33,814 bases of DNA, taken from assembly GCA_018267545.1 (NCBI GenBank), contig JAFDYG010000545.1, positions 1 to 33,814 of the forward strand, given 5' to 3'. This DNA comes from Bacteroidota bacterium (GTDB taxonomy: Bacteria; Bacteroidota; Bacteroidia; Chitinophagales; Chitinophagaceae). Below, in pieces: positions 2,119 through 23,241 of this stretch. The notes under the pieces are model-generated. The model did not search any database, was not told where the DNA came from, and worked only from the letters and a program-made list of their open reading frames with translations. How positions within the stretch are numbered: the stretch's first letter is position 1; each line of letters begins with the position of its first letter. The translations under genes and the position numbers were made by a program.

Positions 2119-2192
2119 GGATCGGTAGTTCAGTTGGTTAGAATGCCGCCCTGTCACGGCGGAGGTCGCGGGTTCGAGTCCCGTCCGGTCCG
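2119..2192 (+). tRNA. tRNA-Asp(GTC)
   Basis: The 74-base cloverleaf can be read directly. The acceptor GGATCGG pairs with CCGGTCC (one T-G wobble). The anticodon stem is CCGCC/GGCGG with loop CTGTCAC, giving anticodon GTC. The T arm contains GGTTCGAGTCC. The discriminator is G, and CCA is not encoded (the next bases are CAA). A consensus promoter lies upstream and a strong hairpin terminator begins two bases after the 3' end. Confidence 0.97.
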
Positions 2193-2220: not shown

Positions 2221-2811
2221 TCATTTATTAAAGCTCAATAAGAATAGAAGCACAAAATAGAAGGATATATTCGAGTAGGACAGCCGCAGATGCCTCAAGG
2301 CGATCGTAAGCTGATTCTCTACCGTACGCTTGGATATATTGAGCTTGCCGGCTATCTCCTCATTGCTCAGGCTTTCGATCCTGCTCAACCAGAATATCTC
2401 CTGGCACCTGCGCGGCAGCGCTTTTAACAGCTGCGAAAGCTGCGACTCCAATTCACTATATCGCAGCTTGTCCCCGATTGTATTATCGACCACCAACGAT
2501 TCCGTTTTGGAAAACTGATCCATATATTCAACGATATCCACTTTGGCCGCCTTCAAATGGGAAAATACATGATACCGGGCAGCCGCATGGATATAGCCTT
2601 GAAAATTCGATATTTTCAGATGCTTCCGCTTGGTCCATAAAGAAAGGAAAACGTCATGGGTAATCTCCCGGGCGACAAACTCATCTTTCAGGTAATGATT
2701 GACAGTTTGATAAAGTTGCTTCCAATGCCTATTATAAAGGACTGTAAAAGCCCTCGTACTATCGGATACGACAGCATCCCATAATTCAGCGTCGGCAAGC
2801 TTACTAAACAT
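2221..2811 (-). CDS. ECF-type RNA polymerase sigma factor (module 1)
   Basis: This 196-residue sigma-70 family extracytoplasmic-function factor has region 2 at about residues 20-90 (AFTVLYNRHW, then EITHDVFLSLW) and region 4 at about 123-176 (LPRRCQEIFWLSRIESLSNEEIAGKLNISKRTVE is split by the sigma-4 helix-turn-helix). Its likely role is to direct polymerase to the neighbouring SusC/SusD genes when released by FecR. Unusually, it is divergent from its fecR rather than lying upstream on the same strand. The last 15 residues (FYFVLLFLLSF) are strongly hydrophobic. A 6-bp inverted repeat lies 14 bases upstream of the start. Confidence 0.93.
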   Translation of the reverse strand: MFSKLADAELWDAVVSDSTRAFTVLYNRHWKQLYQTVNHYLKDEFVAREITHDVFLSLWTKRKHLKISNFQGYIHAAARYHVFSHLKAAKVDIVEYMDQFSKTESLVVDNTIGDKLRYSELESQLSQLLKALPRRCQEIFWLSRIESLSNEEIAGKLNISKRTVENQLTIALRHLRLSYSNISFYFVLLFLLSFNK

Positions 2812-2840: not shown

Positions 2841-2918
2841 TCTAATTGGATATTTATTTTTTTAAAGTATGTGTGTTGGAGCTCCTTTTTGATGTCATTG
2901 ATGGAGGAAACTAATTCT

Positions 2919-4061
2919 ATGAGCCCGCAAGAGTATATCAAGCTGTATGAAAAGTACCTGTCAGGATCCTGCACGCCTGAAGAAGAAGCCGCATTGATGC
3001 GCTATCAGGATAATTTCAAAATGCAGGATGCCCCCCGCTCCCCCCTATCCGATCAGGATAAAGCTACCCGCCGCGAAATTTATTCCCGCATCGCACAATC
3101 GATCGGCCCCAAAACAAGAACCGTCAGGCTCAAATTCTGGTGGGCCGCAGCAAGTATCCTGCTGGTCGTAATAGCAGCCGTCTATTTTACCGGCCGCCAA
3201 TCCGCCAAACCACTGGCAGTCAATAAAAATCCCGACATAAAAAACACGACTCCCATCAAGCCGGGCACCACCGCCGCAACGCTTACACTGGCCAATGGGT
3301 CGCAGATCGTATTGGATGATGCGCACAATGGAGTGTTGAGCAATTCTGGCAATACCGCGATTACAAAAACGAAGAACGGCCAGCTCGCCTATGTCGACAA
3401 CGGAACCTCCGCAACGATAGACCCCAATGCCAAAAATACCCTTGTCATTCCACGCGGCGGACAATACATGGTAACCCTCTCCGACAGCACCAAAGTATGG
3501 CTGAATTCCACATCATCCCTGACCTATCCTATTGCATTTACGGGCAACGAAAGGGCCGTCACTCTCACAGGAGAAGCCTACTTCGAAGTGGCAAAGAATA
3601 AAGCGCATCCCTTTATTGTTCATACACAAAAAATGGACGTAAAGGTTTTGGGCACTCATTTCAACGTAGATGCCTATGAGGACGAAACGGATACGAAAAC
3701 CACCCTGCTCGAAGGTTCGGTGGCTTTATCACACCAAAGCAGCTCGATATTACTAACACCCGGCGAACAGGGGATCGCCGGCCCAGCCGCCGCCATCCGC
3801 ACCCGGAAGGTCAATACCGATCACGTCACGGCCTGGAAGCAAGGCTATTTTGTTTTCAGAGGAGATAATATCCGCGAGATCATGAAACAGATCAGCAGAT
3901 GGTACGACGTCGATATCGTATACGAAGGCAACGTAACGGATGAACCCTTCGGCGGCACCTATTCCAGGAATAAAGACATAACCGAGCTTCTGCACGGTCT
4001 TGAATTAACCGAATTAGTTCACTTTAAAATTGAAGGAAGGAGGATCATCGTCATGAAATAA
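2919..4061 (+). CDS. FecR-family anti-sigma factor (module 1)
   Basis: This is an inner-membrane anti-sigma factor that couples the STN domain of the adjacent SusC to the ECF sigma factor. It has a cytoplasmic N-terminal segment (MSPQEYIKLYEKYLSGSCTPEEE), one transmembrane helix (WWAAASILLVVIAAVYF, about residues 74-90), a periplasmic FecR domain (GGQYMVTLSDSTKVWLNS, then GEAYFEVAKNKAHPFIV and LGTHFNVDAY) and the C-terminal DUF4974-type domain (IREIMKQISRWYDVDIVYEG). I chose the ATG at 2919 because a GGAGGAAA tract lies just upstream and MSPQEYI is a common start for these proteins. In-frame ATGs at 2871, 2892 and 2901 are also possible. A 133-base gap with a hairpin element separates it from susC. 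Confidence 0.93.
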   Translation: MSPQEYIKLYEKYLSGSCTPEEEAALMRYQDNFKMQDAPRSPLSDQDKATRREIYSRIAQSIGPKTRTVRLKFWWAAASILLVVIAAVYFTGRQSAKPLAVNKNPDIKNTTPIKPGTTAATLTLANGSQIVLDDAHNGVLSNSGNTAITKTKNGQLAYVDNGTSATIDPNAKNTLVIPRGGQYMVTLSDSTKVWLNSTSSLTYPIAFTGNERAVTLTGEAYFEVAKNKAHPFIVHTQKMDVKVLGTHFNVDAYEDETDTKTTLLEGSVALSHQSSSILLTPGEQGIAGPAAAIRTRKVNTDHVTAWKQGYFVFRGDNIREIMKQISRWYDVDIVYEGNVTDEPFGGTYSRNKDITELLHGLELTELVHFKIEGRRIIVMK

Positions 4062-4081
4062 AACCAAACACTGCGATGATC

Positions 4082-4142
4082 ATCTGAAAAAGGGCCAGAA
4101 GCGCAGCAACGCTCCCAGCCCGCCAGCATAGCTGGATCAGGT
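4082..4142 (+). promoter_or_regulatory. candidate structured RNA element in fecR-susC gap (copy 1)
   Basis: The element begins ATCTGAA (4082-4088) and ends TCAGGT (4137-4142). Its core hairpin pairs AGCG (4100-4103) with CGCT (4110-4113) around loop CAGCAA, with an A-C mismatch next to it, another G-C, and an outer GGGC (4092-4095)/GCCC (4118-4121) helix. A second hairpin is CCAGC-ATA-GCTGG (4123-4135). TCAGGT could also pair with ACCTGA at 4182-4187, eight bases before the susC start. A similar element lies at the same place in module 2 (22013-22063, minus strand). Function is unknown. Confidence 0.5.
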
Positions 4143-4194
4143 GGTCTTATAACAATTGTGTGCCAATCAAATTATAATCTAACCTGACATTCAA

Positions 4195-7100
4195 ATGTAT
4201 AAAAATTTTAAGGAACGAAAGTTCTGGAGGGAATTTTATGCCCCAATTAAATTCATCCGCATTATGAAGCTGACCTGGATATTCATAATGGTGGCCGTTT
4301 TACAGGCAAATGCAAGGTCGTATGCACAAAAGATAAACATAGACGTGCAAAACGCCCAGCTGGAAGACGTATTATTTAAGGTCCAGCAGCAGAGCGGATA
4401 CGATTTTCTCTATAGCGCCCAGCTGATACGGACAGCTTCACCGGTATCCCTGAATCTCAAAAATGTCACGATTGCACAGGCCCTGGAGAAAATATTTGTC
4501 AATCAGCCTTTTATCTACCTCATTAATAGAAAAACAATCACCATCAGATCAAAGCTCGAAGCCGATAAAGTGGCCGAACCGGAACCGCCTGCCTTTGCAA
4601 AGATCACGGGAAAGGTGACCGATGACAAGGGTGTTCCTCTACAAGGCGTGTCGATCCAGCTGAAAGGCACACCCACCGGCACTCAAACAGACGCCAGCGG
4701 CTTTTTTTCCCTGAACGTACCCGACAACAACAGGGGGGTGCTGGTCTTCTCCTTCGTAGGCTTCGCCAAACAGGAGATCCGGTTGGGCACAGCCACCGAA
4801 TTCAATATCGCCCTGGCTCCCGACAACCAGGGATTGAACGAGGTGGTGATCACCGGATATAGCACGCAAGCCAGACACACCCTGACCAGCGCCATCGTCT
4901 CGGTCAAAGGCGAGGATATGACCAAGCGCATAGCGACAGACGCCACCTCCCTTCTGCAAGGACAGCTTCCCGGCTTATCGGTCATTCAAAATTCCGGCGA
5001 GCCCGGCAACGAAAATGTACAGCTCCGCATCCGGGGACTGGGCACATTCAGCGGCGCGAACAACAACCCGCTGGTCATCGTAGATGGTATTCCCGGCAGC
5101 CTGGCCGTCATCAACCCCAACGACATCGAGTCCGCCACCGTCCTGAAAGACGCAGCAGCAGCAGCCATTTACGGCTCGCAGGGCGCCAACGGCGTACTGG
5201 TAATCAAGACCAAAAAAGGAAAGGCAGGAGCCTTCAATCTTTCTTATAATTATAACATCGGATTCTCCACACCGACCCGCCTGCCAAAGCTGATTACCAA
5301 TTCCGCGCAGTTTATGGAATTGCTGAACGAAGCAGAAACCAATTCAGGAAATGTTCCCGTTTATACGCAGGCTCAGATAGACCTTTATAAAAATGCAACC
5401 GACCGGACCAAATATCCCAACCACGACTGGCTAAAAGACATGTTCCATACCGCTACGGTACAAAACCACTATATGAATCTCAGCGGCGGCAGCGAAACCA
5501 CCGCTTATACACTCGGTCTGGGCTTCACCGATCAACCCGGCTCGATGCTGGGATTCGACTACAAAAAATACACCGTCAGCCTGGGACTGACCTCCAAAAT
5601 AAACAAGCGGGTGACCCTCGGCGCCAATTTCCAAATCCGGTATGGAGACCGTCTCTATGCTTTCGACAACGCCACCGATCTTTATATCTCCACCCTGTCC
5701 CAGTCTCCGCTATACCCGGCACGAACAGCAGACGGCCAATGGATAACCAAGGCTTATGACAAAGAGCTCGGAAACAAAAACCCCGTTCTTTCCGCAAGCA
5801 TCCAAACCCACAACCCCAATTACTACGGACAGGGAAATATCTCGCTCGACGTTCAAATCTTCGATGCATTGAAATGGGAGAACCGCGCAGGTCTGTTCTT
5901 TAATGTCGACAAAAGCAAAACGCTGCACCCCGTCATTCCTCAATACCTGTATAGTGACCTTTCATACTATCGGAATGCAGACGTGGGCACCCCGGGAATG
6001 TATGTCAACGAAAATGACGATATCCATTCCACCGTCTATAGCCAGCTCAATTTTCATAAGGTATTTGACAAGCACGACCTGACCGTTTTGGGCGGGGTTC
6101 AGCAGGAAAATGATAATACTTCCTATGTCGATGCCTTCCGCACCGGCTACCCGACCAATTTACTGGCAGAGCTGAATGCCGGCTCGGTCAACGGCCAGAC
6201 AAACGACGGAACATCCGCCAAATGGGCCATCCAGTCTTTATACGGTAGCGCTAACTATAATTTCGACGATAAATATCTGCTGGGCGCTAACGTACGTTAC
6301 GACGGAACATCCCGCCTTCCTTCCAGCAGCCGCTGGGGTCTGTACGAATCCTTTTCCGCCGGATGGCGCATTTCGAAAGAAAAGTTCCTGGACAATGTTA
6401 GCTGGATCAACGACTTGAAGCTCCGCGGCTCATGGGGACGCCTCGGCAACCAGAATATCGGCACCTATCCATATCAATCCGCCCTTACACAAAACGTATA
6501 TGCCTTTAATGGAACCATCAACAATGGCTTCATCGGCAATCAGCTGGTCGACCCCTCGCTTACCTGGGAATCTACGCGCATGACCGATCTGGGACTCGAC
6601 TGGACAACGTTCAATAACAAGCTGACGGTTACTTTCGACTGGTTCAACAAATACACGTATAACATTTTAAGACAGTCCCAGGTTCCGCTGGCGCTGGGCG
6701 TCAATGCCCCCGTCGTCAACGACGGAGCAGTAAGCAATAAAGGGCTGGAGTTCCAGCTCCATTACCAGGATCGCGCCTCAAAGAAGCTGACCTGGTACGC
6801 AACGGCAAATTTCCAGCTCTACCGTAACAAGGTTGTCTCGTTTGGATCGCCTGAAATAGGAGGCCCCGACGGTCAAACGATCATGCAGAACGGACAACCC
6901 ATCAATTCTTTCTATCTCTACACCAAAGCGGGTATTTTCCAAAACCAGGCCGAAATCGACCGATCCCCCGATCAGTCCTCCCTTGGCGGCGTGCCCACAC
7001 CCGGCGATATCCGGTATAAGGATATCAACGGTGACGGAGTCGTAGACTCCAAAGACCGTAGCGTAATCCCTGGTCAATATCCCACGTTCGAATATTCTTA

Positions 7101-7581
7101 TTCTATGGGAGCCTCTTGCGGGAATTTCGACGCCAGCTTTCAGCTATATGGCTCATACGGCAACAAGCTCTATCTATATAAATGGGGTGTCGACCCGTTC
7201 GCGCAGGGCGCCATGCCGACCACCGACTGGCTCAACAGATGGACGCCGCAAAATCCTTCCACAACGATGCCGAAATTGTACATGGGTTTTTATGGCTACC
7301 CCAAGATCACAAGCGTTCAATCCACGTACCACTTATATAACGCAAGCTTTTTACGCATCAAAAATCTACAGCTAGGCTATACCCTCTCCGACAGGATGAT
7401 CAGAGGTATCAAAGGCCTTCGCATCTACGCCTCCGTAGACAACCTGGCGCTCTTTACACCGCTGAAAGTCCCTACCGACCCCGAAAGACAGGATATCAAC
7501 AACAAGCCGGATGCCTGGTATGGATTCGCCAATTACCCCCAGAACCGGACCATTACATTTGGAGCATCCGTTAAATTTTAA
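4195..7581 (+). CDS. SusC/RagA-family TonB-dependent outer-membrane transporter (module 1)
   Basis: This 1128-residue outer-membrane beta-barrel transporter is predicted to import an oligosaccharide or other nutrient together with its SusD partner. Domains in order are a signal peptide (hydrophobic MKLTWIFIMVAVLQANA starting at residue 24), an STN signalling domain (about 47-115, INIDVQNAQLEDVLFKVQQQ), a carboxypeptidase-regulatory-like domain (about 137-210, ITGKVTDDKGVPLQGVSI), the SusC signature EVVITGYSTQ, a plug domain with RIRGLGTFSGANNNPLVIVDG and AAAAIYGSQGANGV, and a C-terminal barrel ending ITFGASVKF. The STN domain marks it as a transducer that signals through FecR/ECF sigma. The start could be 4195 or the internal ATG at 4264. 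It is followed closely by susD. Confidence 0.96.
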   Translation: MYKNFKERKFWREFYAPIKFIRIMKLTWIFIMVAVLQANARSYAQKINIDVQNAQLEDVLFKVQQQSGYDFLYSAQLIRTASPVSLNLKNVTIAQALEKIFVNQPFIYLINRKTITIRSKLEADKVAEPEPPAFAKITGKVTDDKGVPLQGVSIQLKGTPTGTQTDASGFFSLNVPDNNRGVLVFSFVGFAKQEIRLGTATEFNIALAPDNQGLNEVVITGYSTQARHTLTSAIVSVKGEDMTKRIATDATSLLQGQLPGLSVIQNSGEPGNENVQLRIRGLGTFSGANNNPLVIVDGIPGSLAVINPNDIESATVLKDAAAAAIYGSQGANGVLVIKTKKGKAGAFNLSYNYNIGFSTPTRLPKLITNSAQFMELLNEAETNSGNVPVYTQAQIDLYKNATDRTKYPNHDWLKDMFHTATVQNHYMNLSGGSETTAYTLGLGFTDQPGSMLGFDYKKYTVSLGLTSKINKRVTLGANFQIRYGDRLYAFDNATDLYISTLSQSPLYPARTADGQWITKAYDKELGNKNPVLSASIQTHNPNYYGQGNISLDVQIFDALKWENRAGLFFNVDKSKTLHPVIPQYLYSDLSYYRNADVGTPGMYVNENDDIHSTVYSQLNFHKVFDKHDLTVLGGVQQENDNTSYVDAFRTGYPTNLLAELNAGSVNGQTNDGTSAKWAIQSLYGSANYNFDDKYLLGANVRYDGTSRLPSSSRWGLYESFSAGWRISKEKFLDNVSWINDLKLRGSWGRLGNQNIGTYPYQSALTQNVYAFNGTINNGFIGNQLVDPSLTWESTRMTDLGLDWTTFNNKLTVTFDWFNKYTYNILRQSQVPLALGVNAPVVNDGAVSNKGLEFQLHYQDRASKKLTWYATANFQLYRNKVVSFGSPEIGGPDGQTIMQNGQPINSFYLYTKAGIFQNQAEIDRSPDQSSLGGVPTPGDIRYKDINGDGVVDSKDRSVIPGQYPTFEYSYSMGASCGNFDASFQLYGSYGNKLYLYKWGVDPFAQGAMPTTDWLNRWTPQNPSTTMPKLYMGFYGYPKITSVQSTYHLYNASFLRIKNLQLGYTLSDRMIRGIKGLRIYASVDNLALFTPLKVPTDPERQDINNKPDAWYGFANYPQNRTITFGASVKF

Positions 7582-18536: not shown

Positions 18537-21500
18537 TTAGAAAGCAAGGTTTAGACCTATCACCAGGCTCTTCGTCAGGGGATAGTTGTTGTTATCGATG
18601 CCGGGGGTCAGGCTGTCATCCGTATTGCTGACGTCCGGGTTGAAGGATTCGTTCTTGGTGAACAGAAACGGATTGGTGATGCTGCAATAGAGCCGTATAG
18701 ACTGCACTTTCAGCTTGTTGACGAAGGACGCCGGCGCCAGGTAGCCAAGGTTGATATTGTTGATACGCAGATAGGTGCCGTAGTCCAGGTAACGCGAGTT
18801 CCAGGGCTCCCGGTTGTTACCCGTTGGCGCGTCATTCGGTCTTGGAACATAACCGTCACCAGGGTTCTGCTCGCTCTTCCAGTAAGCGTTGGAAGACTTG
18901 AGCTGTCTTACGCGGCCGCGCGTATTCAGCGTCCCGAGCCGGCTGATGCTCAAAATCTTATTCCCCACCGAACCCTGCAGGCTGACGCTCAGGCTGAAGC
19001 TCTTGTAGGAAACGCGGTTGCTCATTCCGAAATAGTAGTTGGGATAGGGATTCCCCATGATGGTCTGGTCGCGGCTGTCGATGATGCCGTCGGGCTTTCC
19101 ATTGGGCCCCGAAATATCACGAAAACGGGAGTCCCCTACCCTGGAACGTACCGCAGAGCCCGGAGAGAAGATCGGACCTTTGTCCAGCTCACCCTGGTTC
19201 TTGAACACGCCGTCGTTGATAAAGCCATAGAACATCCCGATAGGCTGACCGATCATGGTGACGTTACCGCCCGAATAAATGGGGTCACCCTGCGGACCAA
19301 GCTTCGTCACCTTATTGCGAAAAATGGAGATATTGAAATCCGTAGTCCACTGAATTTTACCGGTAGTATTGACCGTATTCAATCCAAATTCCCACCCCGT
19401 ATTCTTTACTTCCCCGATATTTTCCAGCGCCCTGCTGAAGCCCGTAGTCATCGGCACGTTGACGCTTAGCAGCAGATCGGTATTGGTGGATTGAAAATGA
19501 TCGACCGTGAGGTTAATCCTCCGCTGGAACAGCGAGATGTCGGCGCCCAGGTTGATCTGCTTTTGCTTCTCCCAGGTGAGTAAGGGATTGGCGAGCCGCC
19601 CCGCAGAGAACCCACCCAACGCAGTGCCAGCAAGGGTATACCGCTCGTAGTTGATGGTCGCGTACTGGTCATAGTTGCCGATATTGTTATTCCCGGTCTG
19701 ACCATAGCTGGCGCGCAGTTTCAGCTCGCTAAGCCAGTCCAGCGGCTTCATAAAGACCTCGTCCGAAAGACGCCATGCAACCGCAAAAGATGGGAAAAGA
19801 CCGTATTTGTTCTGCGAACCGAAGCGCGAAGAGCCATCCGACCGTAAAGAAGCAGTCAAATAATACCGGCTATCGTAGTTATAGTTGATCCTTCCCAGGT
19901 ACGAAATGAGAGACCATTGATAGGCATTCGAAGAACCGTCCGTTATCTGGCCGCTGACAGCGCTCAGGTAAGGCACCAGGTTGTTGGGATACTTATTGCT
20001 GGTGATGGAGTTGGACCGGAAGTCTTCCTTTTGAATGGTATAACCACCCAGCGCCGATAGATTATGCTTACCAAAGCTCTTGGTGTACGTCAGGGTATAT
20101 TCCGAGAGCCAGTTGGTCAGCATGTTGGAAGAGTCATTACCGATGGCTGGGTCGTTGAAAAACGCCGGCAGCTGCGGCTTGAAACGGCTGCTCTTGGTGC
20201 TCATCACATTGGTCCCCAGCAATACGTTCAGCTTTAACGATTTCACGATCTCGTATTCGGCACTGATATTTCCAAGCAATCTGATCATACCCTGATTGGC
20301 TTTTACTTCATTGGCCAGCGCCAAAGGATTGGTCAGGTTGGACGAACCGGCCAGTCCGCTAAAGGCAAAATAAGTACCATCGGGGTTTTTCAGCGGATAC
20401 CAGGAATTCGCCATCATAGCCTGGGCGATGACGCCATCGTTGGGACCCGTACCCGCACCGGCTGCGACGATATTGTTCGAGCTGGTATAGGTCGGATTAA
20501 GATTGACCTTCACCGCAAATTTCTTGGAGAAGCGGGCGTCGATATTCGCCCGGAAGGAATAGCGTTTGAAGTTGCTGTTGATGACGATACCGTCCTGGTT
20601 GAAAAACTCGCCGCTCAAGGCATATCGGATGTTCTCGGTACCGCCCGTAGCGCCGATCTGGTATTGCTGCTGCGGCGCCGTCTGAAGGACCGCGTCGAGC
20701 GCATCTGCGTCATAGGTGTTCTTCCCGGAGAGTACATCCAGCGCTTCCTGCGGCACCTGCCGGAACCAGCCGGTGACAGGACCGGAAACGTCCCGGCCTT
20801 CATCGATGTTCCTATTACGGATGCCGTCGTAATAATACTGCGCCTGTTCCATCGCATTCATAAACTTGGGACGCTTGGCCACTTTCTGCCAGCCCTGATA
20901 TGTATCGAAGGTGAGCGTCGCCTTGCCGGACCTGCCCCGCTTGGTATTGATGATGATAACGCCGCCGGAACCACGGGAACCATAGATAGCCGTGGCGGAA
21001 GCGTCCTTTAAGATGTCCATGCTCTCGATATCGTTCGGATTGAGCGTTTCGATATTGGTCGTCGGGAAACCATCCACGACATAAAGTGGACCGGAGCTTG
21101 CAGAGATGCTGCCGATACCCCTGATCCGTATCTGGGGCGGAGCGCCGGGTTCGCCGGACACAGGCTTGACCTGAACACCGGCAACCTTGCCGATAAGCGC
21201 CTGGTCGACCCGGGGAGCCGCCAGGTCCTTGATATCCCTGCTGCCGACCGAAGCGACCGAACCCGTCAGGTCCTTTCTCTTCTGCGTACCATACCCTACC
21301 ACCACCACGTCGTTCAGACTGGTGTTGGTCGGAGCAAGCGCGATATCCAGCGTAGCACGGCCGCCTACCGCGATTTCCTTGCTATCGTATCCCACAAAAG
21401 AGACAACGAGACGCGCGTTCTCATTCTTTACAGCAATAGAAAAGCTGCCATCGTCACGCGTCACTACCGTGTTGCTGGTGCCTTTCTCCGTAACGCTTGC

Positions 21501-21959
21501 ACCGGCCAGCGGCTCACCTTTGTCACTGGCAATCCGGCCGGTGATGGTAAACGCAGGAGGTGCGGGGGGCTCTTCCTTCTGTACAGGAGGAGGAGCCGCC
21601 TCGACCTCTCTGAGAATAATCATCTTGTTGAGAATGGTGTAAGTAAAGGGCTGATCGTGAAAACAGAGATCCAATACCCGCTCGAGCGGAGCATTGTTGA
21701 TTTGAATGGTAATGTTCTTAGCGTTTTGTAGAAGACTTTCTCTGTAGACGAAGGTGTACCCGGTCTGCTTTTTTATTTCCCGGAAGACCTTCGGAAGAGG
21801 GGAGTTGGTTTCTGAAAGCGTTAGGTTCTGAGCTTCCGTTTTGGCCGAGAGCTGAAGGCTAAAAACGAGAAGCAAAAAGGCTGTCAGTTTCATAATCAGC
21901 AACGTTTTGGTCAAACTTTTCCGGGCAAAGAAAAGTTTGCAGCAAGCAATAATTGGCAT
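18537..21959 (-). CDS. SusC/RagA-family TonB-dependent outer-membrane transporter (module 2)
   Basis: This 1140-residue outer-membrane transporter carries a signal peptide (MKLTAFLLLVFSLQLSAKTEA from residue 23), an STN domain (about 45-112, LSETNSPLPKVFREIKKQTGY), a proline-rich linker, a carboxypeptidase-regulatory-like domain (ITGRIASDKGEPLAGASV), the SusC signature DVVVVGYGTQKR and a plug domain (RIRGIGSISASSGPLYVVDG, ATAIYGSRGSGGV), then the barrel. The STN domain fits regulation by the adjacent FecR and ECF sigma. The ATG at 21959 gives the extended N-terminus common in these transporters; the ATG at 21893 would start directly at the signal peptide. Sequence similarity to the module 1 SusC is only at family level. 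Confidence 0.96.
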   Translation of the reverse strand: MPIIACCKLFFARKSLTKTLLIMKLTAFLLLVFSLQLSAKTEAQNLTLSETNSPLPKVFREIKKQTGYTFVYRESLLQNAKNITIQINNAPLERVLDLCFHDQPFTYTILNKMIILREVEAAPPPVQKEEPPAPPAFTITGRIASDKGEPLAGASVTEKGTSNTVVTRDDGSFSIAVKNENARLVVSFVGYDSKEIAVGGRATLDIALAPTNTSLNDVVVVGYGTQKRKDLTGSVASVGSRDIKDLAAPRVDQALIGKVAGVQVKPVSGEPGAPPQIRIRGIGSISASSGPLYVVDGFPTTNIETLNPNDIESMDILKDASATAIYGSRGSGGVIIINTKRGRSGKATLTFDTYQGWQKVAKRPKFMNAMEQAQYYYDGIRNRNIDEGRDVSGPVTGWFRQVPQEALDVLSGKNTYDADALDAVLQTAPQQQYQIGATGGTENIRYALSGEFFNQDGIVINSNFKRYSFRANIDARFSKKFAVKVNLNPTYTSSNNIVAAGAGTGPNDGVIAQAMMANSWYPLKNPDGTYFAFSGLAGSSNLTNPLALANEVKANQGMIRLLGNISAEYEIVKSLKLNVLLGTNVMSTKSSRFKPQLPAFFNDPAIGNDSSNMLTNWLSEYTLTYTKSFGKHNLSALGGYTIQKEDFRSNSITSNKYPNNLVPYLSAVSGQITDGSSNAYQWSLISYLGRINYNYDSRYYLTASLRSDGSSRFGSQNKYGLFPSFAVAWRLSDEVFMKPLDWLSELKLRASYGQTGNNNIGNYDQYATINYERYTLAGTALGGFSAGRLANPLLTWEKQKQINLGADISLFQRRINLTVDHFQSTNTDLLLSVNVPMTTGFSRALENIGEVKNTGWEFGLNTVNTTGKIQWTTDFNISIFRNKVTKLGPQGDPIYSGGNVTMIGQPIGMFYGFINDGVFKNQGELDKGPIFSPGSAVRSRVGDSRFRDISGPNGKPDGIIDSRDQTIMGNPYPNYYFGMSNRVSYKSFSLSVSLQGSVGNKILSISRLGTLNTRGRVRQLKSSNAYWKSEQNPGDGYVPRPNDAPTGNNREPWNSRYLDYGTYLRINNINLGYLAPASFVNKLKVQSIRLYCSITNPFLFTKNESFNPDVSNTDDSLTPGIDNNNYPLTKSLVIGLNLAF

Positions 21960-21969
21960 AGATTTGAAT

Positions 21970-22012: not shown

Positions 22013-22063
22013 ACCTGACTATTCGCCGGGAGTGTTACCAGCACTTCCGGTTTTCGTTCAGAT
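22013..22063 (-). promoter_or_regulatory. candidate structured RNA element in fecR-susC gap (copy 2)
   Basis: Read on the minus strand, the element runs from ATCTGAA (overlapping the fecR stop) to TCAGGT. Its core is CCGGAAGTG (22050-22042), loop CTGGTAA, CACTCCCGG (22034-22026): nine positions with a single A-C mismatch. The same mismatch and the same GAAGYG/CRCTCCC strands occur in copy 1 at 4082-4142, with the second stem pair changed from C-G to T-A. The second hairpin of copy 1 is missing here. Confidence 0.5.
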
Positions 22064-23241
22064 CAATGCTTTATGATAATCTTCTTATCTTCTATTTGAA
22101 ACTTTGCCTTACACGCAATCTCCAGCGCTTTTAACACGTCATCCAGCTTCGTATCCCTCGGTATATCCGCGTGCAGCACGTCACCCATCCGTTTGTTTTG
22201 AAAGCCCCCGTCCTCATAAACCAGATCTACGTCATACCAACGCGCCAGCTGATTCATGATCGTTTCGATGGTAGCATTCTCGAAATGAAACATCCCGTTC
22301 TTCCAGGCGATCACCGCATTCACGTCTACATTATCTACCCGCTTGACGCGTCCATTGGAAAGACGCGATTGCTGCCCCGGAGCCAATAAGGTCTCATTGT
22401 CGCCATTGACGAATTTGACGCTGCCCTCGAGCAGAGTCGTCGTCAGCTGCCGTTCATCGGCATAAGCCGACACGTTGAAGCTCGTACCGAGGACCTCAAT
22501 CCGCGAGCCATTGACGACGACGACAAAGGGCTTGTCTTTATTCTTGGCAACTTCCAGATATGCTTCACCAGTGATCTCGACGGACCTCTCCTTCCCCTTG
22601 AAGGCCGTGGGAAAATGTAGAGACGACGCGGCATTCAGCCAGACTATCGTTCCGTCCGCCAGCTCCACCTGGTATTGACCTCCTCGTGGAGTGGAAATAG
22701 TATTGTATAAAACCTCATCGACACTGGAAGCGCTATAAGCCAGCTTACCATCGATCTTAATTACTTTACTGCCGCCCTGCTTGGCCAGCTCGCCATTCTT
22801 CGCATCATCCAACGCCACCACAGTGCCATCGGCCAGCTTGAGCGTAGCCTTATTACCCTTCTGTTTAACCTGGGCAACGCTAACAACGGCCTTCTCAGAC
22901 ATAGGTTTTTCAACCGGCTTTTTCCAATACAACCAGACGCCCGCCACAAGCAGCAACATCGCTGCTGCAATACCGGTCATCCAATACACGCCGGCTCTCC
23001 TCCGAATAGGAACGACCGGAGCCTCCGTACCGACAATCTGCTCAAACACCGACTCCCTTTCCGCCTCGTCGGACACCGGCCTGGCATCGGCAGAAGCCGC
23101 AAAAAGCCGGTCGACGTATTCGCGCAGCTGCGGGTCGATCTTATCCTCTTTTAAGAGAGTAAGAAAATTCACTAATTCTTCATCGGAAAGGTTGTTGTGG
23201 AGGAAGCCCTCTATCAGTTCTTCCTGGGATTTTCTCGTCAT
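22063..23241 (-). CDS. FecR-family anti-sigma factor (module 2)
   Basis: This 392-residue protein has a cytoplasmic N-terminal segment (EELIEGFLHNNLSDEELVNF), one transmembrane helix at about 85-107 (VYWMTGIAAAMLLLVAGVWLYW), a periplasmic FecR domain (GGQYQVELADGTIVWLNAASS, GEAYLEVAKNKDKPFVVV, LGTSFNVSAYAD) and a C-terminal DUF4974-type domain (IETIMNQLARWYDVDLVYED). It should hold or activate the ECF sigma encoded 18 bases upstream, in response to the STN domain of the downstream SusC. Confidence 0.95.
   Translation of the reverse strand: MTRKSQEELIEGFLHNNLSDEELVNFLTLLKEDKIDPQLREYVDRLFAASADARPVSDEAERESVFEQIVGTEAPVVPIRRRAGVYWMTGIAAAMLLLVAGVWLYWKKPVEKPMSEKAVVSVAQVKQKGNKATLKLADGTVVALDDAKNGELAKQGGSKVIKIDGKLAYSASSVDEVLYNTISTPRGGQYQVELADGTIVWLNAASSLHFPTAFKGKERSVEITGEAYLEVAKNKDKPFVVVVNGSRIEVLGTSFNVSAYADERQLTTTLLEGSVKFVNGDNETLLAPGQQSRLSNGRVKRVDNVDVNAVIAWKNGMFHFENATIETIMNQLARWYDVDLVYEDGGFQNKRMGDVLHADIPRDTKLDDVLKALEIACKAKFQIEDKKIIIKH

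Follow-up and report, generated by a model that had tools for sequence, protein, structure and literature searches.

The window, i.e. the whole stretch of 33,814 nucleotides of Chitinophagaceae DNA that was analysed, contains two modules in which a gap separates fecR, encoding an anti-sigma factor, from a susC homologue, and both modules include fecR and ECF sigma factor genes (Pfam). In module 1 the ECF sigma gene (2221-2811, minus strand) is divergent from fecR (2871-4061, plus strand), and a tRNA gene (Rfam; 2119-2192, plus strand) lies near it. In module 2 the sigma gene (23865-23260) is codirectional with fecR. The genes and the parts of the two fecR-susC gaps are as follows:

2871 to 4061, plus strand: fecR of module 1, anti-sigma factor (Pfam FecR and FecR_C)
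4076 to 4087, plus strand: micro-ORF of module 1, ATGATCATCTGA (M-I-I-stop), located 5' of the hairpin (sequence; a weak copy without the N-S/T-S/T end of its relatives)
4087 to 4091, minus strand: U-run of module 1 (TTTTT on the minus strand), 3' of the terminator stem (sequence)
4092 to 4121, minus strand: predicted antisense terminator hairpin of module 1 (13 unbroken pairs, four of which are G.U, or A.C on the plus strand)
4123 to 4135, minus strand: middle hairpin of the predicted antisense RNA of module 1, CCAGC TAT GCTGG (fold)
4137 to 4142, minus strand: ACCTGA of module 1, predicted partner of the 5' end of the antisense RNA (fold)
4182 to 4187, minus strand: TCAGGT of module 1, 5' end of the predicted antisense RNA, pairing with 4137-4142 (fold)
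4087 to 4187, minus strand: predicted cis-antisense RNA of module 1, approximately 101 nt (box, fold and U-run), its start at about 4187 being set from the distance to the -7 box and accurate to some bases
4192 to 4199, minus strand: putative -7 promoter box TACATTTG of the antisense RNA of module 1 (sequence), overlapping the susC start codon (4195-4197)
4195 to 7581, plus strand: susC homologue of module 1 (Pfam Plug, CarbopepD_reg_2 and STN; TIGR04056)
18537 to 21959, minus strand: susC homologue of module 2 (Pfam Plug and STN; TIGR04056)
21959 to 21966, plus strand: putative -7 box TAGATTTG of the antisense RNA of module 2 (sequence), overlapping the susC start codon
21971 to 22054, plus strand: predicted cis-antisense RNA of module 2, approximately 84-88 nt (box and fold)
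22026 to 22050, plus strand: predicted antisense terminator hairpin of module 2, followed by TTTTCGTT (fold energy)
22063 to 23241, minus strand: fecR of module 2 (Pfam FecR and FecR_C)

A conserved, regulatory-looking hairpin of fecR-susC gaps is shared by both modules, but is better read on the opposite strand. The hairpin strands reported in the initial annotation are present: module 1 has GAAGCG/CGCTCCC, within 4092-4121, and module 2 has GAAGTG/CACTCCC (22050-22026, minus strand). The sequence bears out both the C-G to T-A exchange between the two stems and their common A.C mismatch. The outer blocks also occur in both window copies, with ATCTGA ahead of the hairpin and TCAGGT behind it, and ACCTGA is found at 4182-4187, seven bases separating it from the susC ATG (4195). 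While the ordered set of blocks thus holds for the two window gaps, it is not general, with TCTGA and TCAGG occurring together in three of seventy curated units, namely the two window copies and L088.

Further copies in other fecR-susC gaps, on which the initial annotation had staked its element, are numerous. Using an automatic, strand-neutral search and a threshold of at least five A in the eight bases directly 5' of the hairpin, A-run hairpins were identified in 63/99 gaps behind fecR (same genome, 35; same genus, 64; fetched via the FecR C-terminal domain), against a mean of 6.2 (maximum 11) in twenty dinucleotide shuffles. A T-run directly 3' of the hairpin was found in 11/99 gaps (shuffle mean 1.35; maximum 4). 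When the best hairpins were taken whatever their flank, an A-run preceded 44/90 and a T-run followed 2/90. Within the own genome 17/35 gaps behind fecR carry the unit, while the automatic search detected no A-run hairpin in 36/99 genus gaps, many of them short. The automatic picks were subsequently corrected to seventy curated units, with 7/63 dropped as the wrong hairpin and fourteen set by hand (four replacing dropped ones); the automatic count over the 99 gaps is therefore the unbiased one, the curated units being hand-edited.

The positions that deviate from Watson-Crick pairing in the A-run hairpins are predominantly A.C rather than G.U on the susC strand (48 versus 11; shuffles 163 versus 121; p = 1.7e-4), and in 52/70 curated units the antisense strand gives the more stable hairpin. 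For example, the module 1 hairpin folds at -22.4 kcal/mol on the antisense and -11.3 kcal/mol on the sense strand, with corresponding values of -15.4 and -9.3 kcal/mol for module 2. Since an A.C mismatch and an A-run on the susC strand correspond to G.U pairs and a U-run on the other, the hairpin reads as an intrinsic terminator pointing away from susC. A G+C-rich stem directly followed by a U-run is indeed present on the antisense strand, the U-run of module 2 being short (TTTTCGTT), and the antisense U-run lies just after fecR or the micro-ORF. The compensatory stem changes anticipated in the initial annotation are borne out in part. In an alignment fitted to the hairpin structure, in which 5/57 rows are opposite-strand readings of sites already included, 84 cells were changed on both sides of the stem as opposed to 30.7 in shuffles and 8-49 in slid versions, but the number of pairs with a double-sided change (9 versus 8.1 in shuffles) does not exceed expectation. 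In agreement with the earlier statement that no named riboswitch with this layout was known, comparison of the window against Rfam at the gathering cut-off returned only a tRNA. With E-values up to 10, the module 1 gap gave eight matches far below cut-off, of which Atu_C4 (13.6 bits; cut-off 80) was the sole one over the hairpin, on the minus strand, and the module 2 gap gave none. In twelve loci the matches were confined to a TPP element and a tRNA, both in L198.

The start of the putative antisense RNA is indicated by a sequence pattern across the susC start codon. This start could be set in 68 of the seventy curated units, and at these the positions -7 to -4 and -1 before the ATG are mostly Y-A-A-A and T, respectively. 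The pattern YAAANNTATG occurs at 46/68 starts, 23 with C (TTTG on the other strand) and 23 with T (TTTA), and CAAANNTATG is the form found at 23/68. On the opposite strand it reads TAnnTTTG or TAnnTTTA, and it is thus identical to, or one letter off, the -7 consensus TAnnTTTG described for the Bacteroidota housekeeping sigma factor (PMC7366714). By comparison, the pattern was observed at 5/154 gene starts of the same genome with a gap of at least 60 nt (5/210 overall) and at 2/29 fecR-linked susC genes without hairpin. Among twenty fecR-less susC genes of the same genome, chosen by eye out of 56 scored matches, the box was found at none, even by a looser pattern, and an A-run hairpin at one. 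The possibility that the ATG context is a mere translation signal was checked on these background starts, hairpin-less gaps and fecR-less susC genes, and set aside. The module 1 box TACATTTG (4199-4192) lies four bases off the usual place relative to the ATG, and so falls outside the counted pattern. No TTTG at -33 was seen upstream of the -7 box among the predicted units, and there is no clear preference for a purine at the predicted first base (T 55, G 45, A 18 and C 1 in 119 units). The promoter frequencies over the 119 predicted RNAs are biased by the filters applied, while those of the 68 susC starts are unbiased.

With the RNA start set five bases past the box and its end at the U-run, a length of 70-112 nt (median 96) was predicted for 119 of 130 units tried, subject to a length filter of 70-180 and, in the part of the set chosen by hairpin sequence (62 loci), a start-site pattern filter. 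Compared to dinucleotide shuffles, by which the G/U-rich composition was discounted as the cause of the antisense folding, these RNAs have a median z of -4.31 on the antisense and -2.79 on the sense strand, with the antisense value lower in 105/119 units; the sense strand, too, folds better than shuffles, as expected from complementarity alone. Even without the terminator, the 5' part gives a median z of -2.46 on the antisense versus -1.12 on the sense strand (119 units). The antisense strand of module 1 (segment 4084-4187) folds at -44.6 kcal/mol (z -5.3; 0/300 shuffles as low; sense z -1.82), and that of module 2 (segment 21971-22060) at -29.8 kcal/mol (z -4.04; 0/300 shuffles; sense z -0.06). 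As a sense leader, the whole gap with the susC start reaches z -1.80 in module 1 (10/200 shuffles as low) and -0.54 in module 2. In the predicted module 1 RNA the UCAGGU at the 5' end forms a stem with an ACCUGA that immediately precedes the next hairpins, and closing stems of a like kind occur in several other folds. The pairing of TCAGGT with ACCTGA noted in the initial annotation exists, but is better read from the fold as the closing stem of an antisense RNA. A kissing loop was also considered and dropped, the U-turn motif (YUNR) being present in 4/117 loops as opposed to 15.3 with shuffled letters.

The hairpin core extends beyond the genus. The 21-mer hairpin core GGGAAATGTTGGMGCATTYCC was located at 62 places in 84,980 genomes, with fecR adjoining all 62 and susC detected at 59, the other three being near locus ends. 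FecR and SusC were recognised by script with profiles built from loci of the own genome rather than from Pfam. This locus set was picked by hairpin sequence, which biases it towards the hairpin but leaves fecR, susC and the micro-ORF unaffected; at least ten of its loci are identical to genus loci. Genomes are taken as independent of kinship in the counts given here, with duplicates removed only in a recount of 117 segments. The 21-mer occurs in Chitinophagaceae, Flavobacteriia (Gelidibacter, Sinomicrobium, Zunongwangia and Croceitalea), Sphingobacteriales (Mucilaginibacter and Pedobacter), Bacteroidales (Odoribacter and Puteibacter) and one Ignavibacteria MAG. Its loop stands forward relative to susC in forty copies and inverted in 22, and the A-run faces fecR in 40/40 forward and 20/22 inverted copies (exceptions L192 and L202), while a T-run on the susC side was found in 1/62. 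The hairpin stems are nearly palindromic (L141-L202), and the loop may consequently flip by recombination. Several gaps of Odoribacter, Puteibacter and Pedobacter show a similar hairpin layout by eye (twenty rows, including Gelidibacter and two repeats), and the loose box pattern is present in 9/20 rows of these four genera. FecR_C matches number 64 in 3.4 Mb of an Odoribacter MAG (G322, the source of L202) and 122 in 8.0 Mb of a Puteibacter genome (G325, the source of L166); the density of anti-sigma genes in the two looks high, although some of these matches may be N-terminal domains of susC products.

In samples that were not chosen by hairpin, in which 64/81 loci yielded a fecR-susC pair, an A-run hairpin was present in 16/22 gaps of at least 70 nt at the family level, 10/23 at the phylum level and 0/7 at the class level. 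The loose box pattern was found in 20/26 of these gaps with the hairpin versus 13/26 without a detected one. The antisense hairpin was also cast as a covariance model (R1), which gave 22.5 bits for module 1 and 25.8 bits for module 2, both copies having been among its training units. When the model was run on the window together with 400 kb from the own genome, its strongest match was L108 (11183-11331; contig C406 of the own genome, at approximately 291,200), a full unit with a M-I-T-stop micro-ORF, an A-run hairpin and a CAAAAGTATG start, which fronts a fecR-less susC homologue behind an ORF resembling an AraC-type regulator. Over the whole genome with E-values up to 1, and with 150 of 1019 candidates scored, 12/20 matches were correctly oriented at fecR and/or susC (eleven with susC and one at a contig end), one was a reverse reading of such a site and seven lay elsewhere.

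A further component of many units is a micro-ORF between fecR and the hairpin. Encoded on the susC strand and 2-14 codons long, it is present in 96/111 segments of at least 30 nt (fifty shuffles: mean 40.3; maximum 48). Following removal of duplicates, it was found in 97/117 segments, with [ND][ST][STA]-stop as the end of 45 and S or T as the last residue of 65. Prior to this removal the C-terminal motif was present in 55/109, compared with 0.07 (maximum 1) in one hundred shuffles, and the background rate was 5/3163 micro-ORFs in 400 kb of genome (both strands). The serine codons derive from both families (22 AGY and 36 TCN) and all three stops (TAA, TGA and TAG) are used, which suggests that the constraint is on amino acids; on this sequence evidence the micro-ORF looks to be constrained at the peptide level, with the kinship of the genomes entering the counts. 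Where the motif is present, 8-20 nt separate the stop from the hairpin in 47/55 micro-ORFs. Among the Flavobacteriia and Bacteroidales copies that were read, most lack the micro-ORF or have one of a different kind; in genus gaps without the hairpin it ends in S or T in 2/29, and the motif is absent at the twenty fecR-less susC genes. In the window, the module 1 copy is reduced to M-I-I-stop and module 2 has none. A second type, ending in F-S-D-S-stop, was observed in three genus gaps (L071, L059 and L086). Among the papers listed by a search of one open-licence library, none dealt with a conserved micro-ORF ahead of susC or with such a hairpin outside Bacteroides, and PMC12632263 and PMC11501099 yielded nothing about RNAs of this type.

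Taken together, the -7 box across the susC start, the closed 5' stem, the terminator hairpin with its G.U pairs and the U-run suggest that each fecR-susC gap of the window is very probably the gene for a cis-antisense RNA of approximately 85-100 nt opposite susC, of the DonS type and probably repressing susC. The translational or attenuation switch on the sense strand that the initial annotation envisaged was abandoned in favour of the opposite strand on account of the side of the A-run, the A.C as opposed to G.U positions, the stability of the hairpin, the folding of the units and the co-occurrence of the box with the hairpin. A sense leader element in the fecR-susC or susC mRNA, with a hairpin whose opening or closing could depend on ribosomes at the micro-ORF, is considered rather unlikely. 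It would account for the micro-ORF in front of the hairpin in 97/117 non-duplicate segments, 45 of them with the C-terminal motif, for the sense fold of module 1, in which TCAGGT can pair upstream or downstream, and for sense folds across the family that surpass shuffles (median z -2.79). It is at odds with the A.C mismatches on the susC strand, with the outer blocks being confined to 3/70 units and with the lack of a micro-ORF in module 2. Furthermore, a riboswitch or attenuator on this strand would display a conserved sense structure with an alternative terminator or sequestration of the ribosome binding site, whereas the window sense folds are ordinary (z -1.82 and -0.06) and a T-run follows 2/90 hairpins. 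As the micro-ORF precedes the hairpin in many copies, a role on the sense strand is also possible.

Given that the hairpin has the form of a terminator, it might alternatively do no more than shield fecR from antisense transcription, or end stray transcription from susC, with no regulatory RNA involved. This is very unlikely, as the -7 box at the susC ATG goes with the hairpin, the 5' part upstream of the terminator itself folds as antisense RNA (median z -2.46), the hairpin core is conserved in sequence and found only beside fecR (62/62), and 19/20 fecR-less susC genes have no A-run hairpin. Least probable of all is a dyad acting at the DNA level, for instance as a protein binding site. Although the occurrence of the loop in both orientations to susC (40 forward and 22 inverted 21-mer copies) could be explained in this manner, the A-run keeps to the fecR side in 40/40 and 20/22 of these, respectively, and the stems vary in sequence yet retain their antisense pairing.

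Under the preferred reading of a cis-antisense RNA, RNA polymerase with the housekeeping sigma factor would produce the RNA while FecR holds the FecI-type sigma factor. The RNA, whose sequence would complement the susC leader to within some 10 nt of the start codon, could repress susC by pairing with this leader, through either blocked initiation or RNase III cleavage. Transcription interference may contribute as well, as the putative antisense promoter sits on the susC start. Upon release of the sigma factor, strong sense transcription would overcome the antisense RNA. A ribosome on the micro-ORF could, more speculatively, shield the susC leader from the antisense RNA. It is conceivable, albeit with the balance tilting against it, that the unit is a three-part module in which translation of a micro-ORF with an N-S/T-S/T-stop (or x-S/T-stop) end leaves the terminating ribosome parked mostly 8-20 nt before the hairpin, where it blocks antisense pairing, the state of the ribosome deciding on the silencing of susC; the encoded product might then be an unrecognised leader peptide of ECF-controlled uptake in Chitinophagaceae and relatives. 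The conserved micro-ORF in any event raises the question of translation-coupled control of the antisense RNA. The number of units and their taxonomic range suggest that antisense control of ECF-type uptake may be a general habit of the Bacteroidota rather than a speciality of gut Bacteroides, and the signature of terminator hairpin, box on the ATG and micro-ORF would allow such RNAs to be annotated without RNA-seq.

In leader-peptide attenuators, too, a short conserved ORF is located ahead of a hairpin towards the 5' end of an operon. These employ runs of one regulatory codon, whereas the conserved residues here are at the C-terminus, and the present units differ in having no U-run on the sense side. 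The closest likeness is to the DonS family of Bacteroides fragilis and Bacteroides thetaiotaomicron, described as cis-antisense RNAs of 78-128 nt opposite susC homologues, whose expression they lower (PMC7366714). Repression of the cognate PUL by this family, through a mechanism given there as unknown, and control of PULs with such RNAs by an ECF sigma/anti-sigma pair have been reported (PMC11697453). In B. thetaiotaomicron, 32 PUL-associated antisense RNAs have been described, with positive as well as negative correlation among the antisense RNA-susC pairs (PMC10994844), and the positive pairs count against the reading preferred here. A Flavobacterium psychrophilum transcriptome paper cites antisense RNAs at fifteen B. 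fragilis PULs and provides an antisense RNA list of its own as a starting point (PMC9723704). The FopS and GibS sRNAs of B. thetaiotaomicron also bear some resemblance, with a terminator hairpin in FopS and repression of the susC mRNA BT_3983 (PMC11697453), but these sRNAs have a 5' seed in common and target a susC encoded elsewhere, while the 5' part of the RNAs predicted here is complementary to their own susC leader. As in the DonS family, the RNA is predicted to lie opposite a susC homologue, upstream of its start, and the lengths of approximately 101 and 84-88 nt in the window fall within the DonS range (family 70-112, median 96, with the filter set at 70). An ECF sigma/anti-sigma pair is likewise present in both modules, one copy elsewhere in the genome (L108) being fecR-less. 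The units differ from DonS in occurring in Chitinophagaceae and other Bacteroidota, and apparently, as judged by its description, in a hairpin core that is the same to the letter across orders, in the -7 box across the susC start codon and in the micro-ORF before the terminator, three features that the Bacteroides members may nevertheless share. A type of control known from gut Bacteroides thus seems to recur, strongly conserved as a unit, among relatives living in other habitats, often beside a tiny conserved peptide gene.
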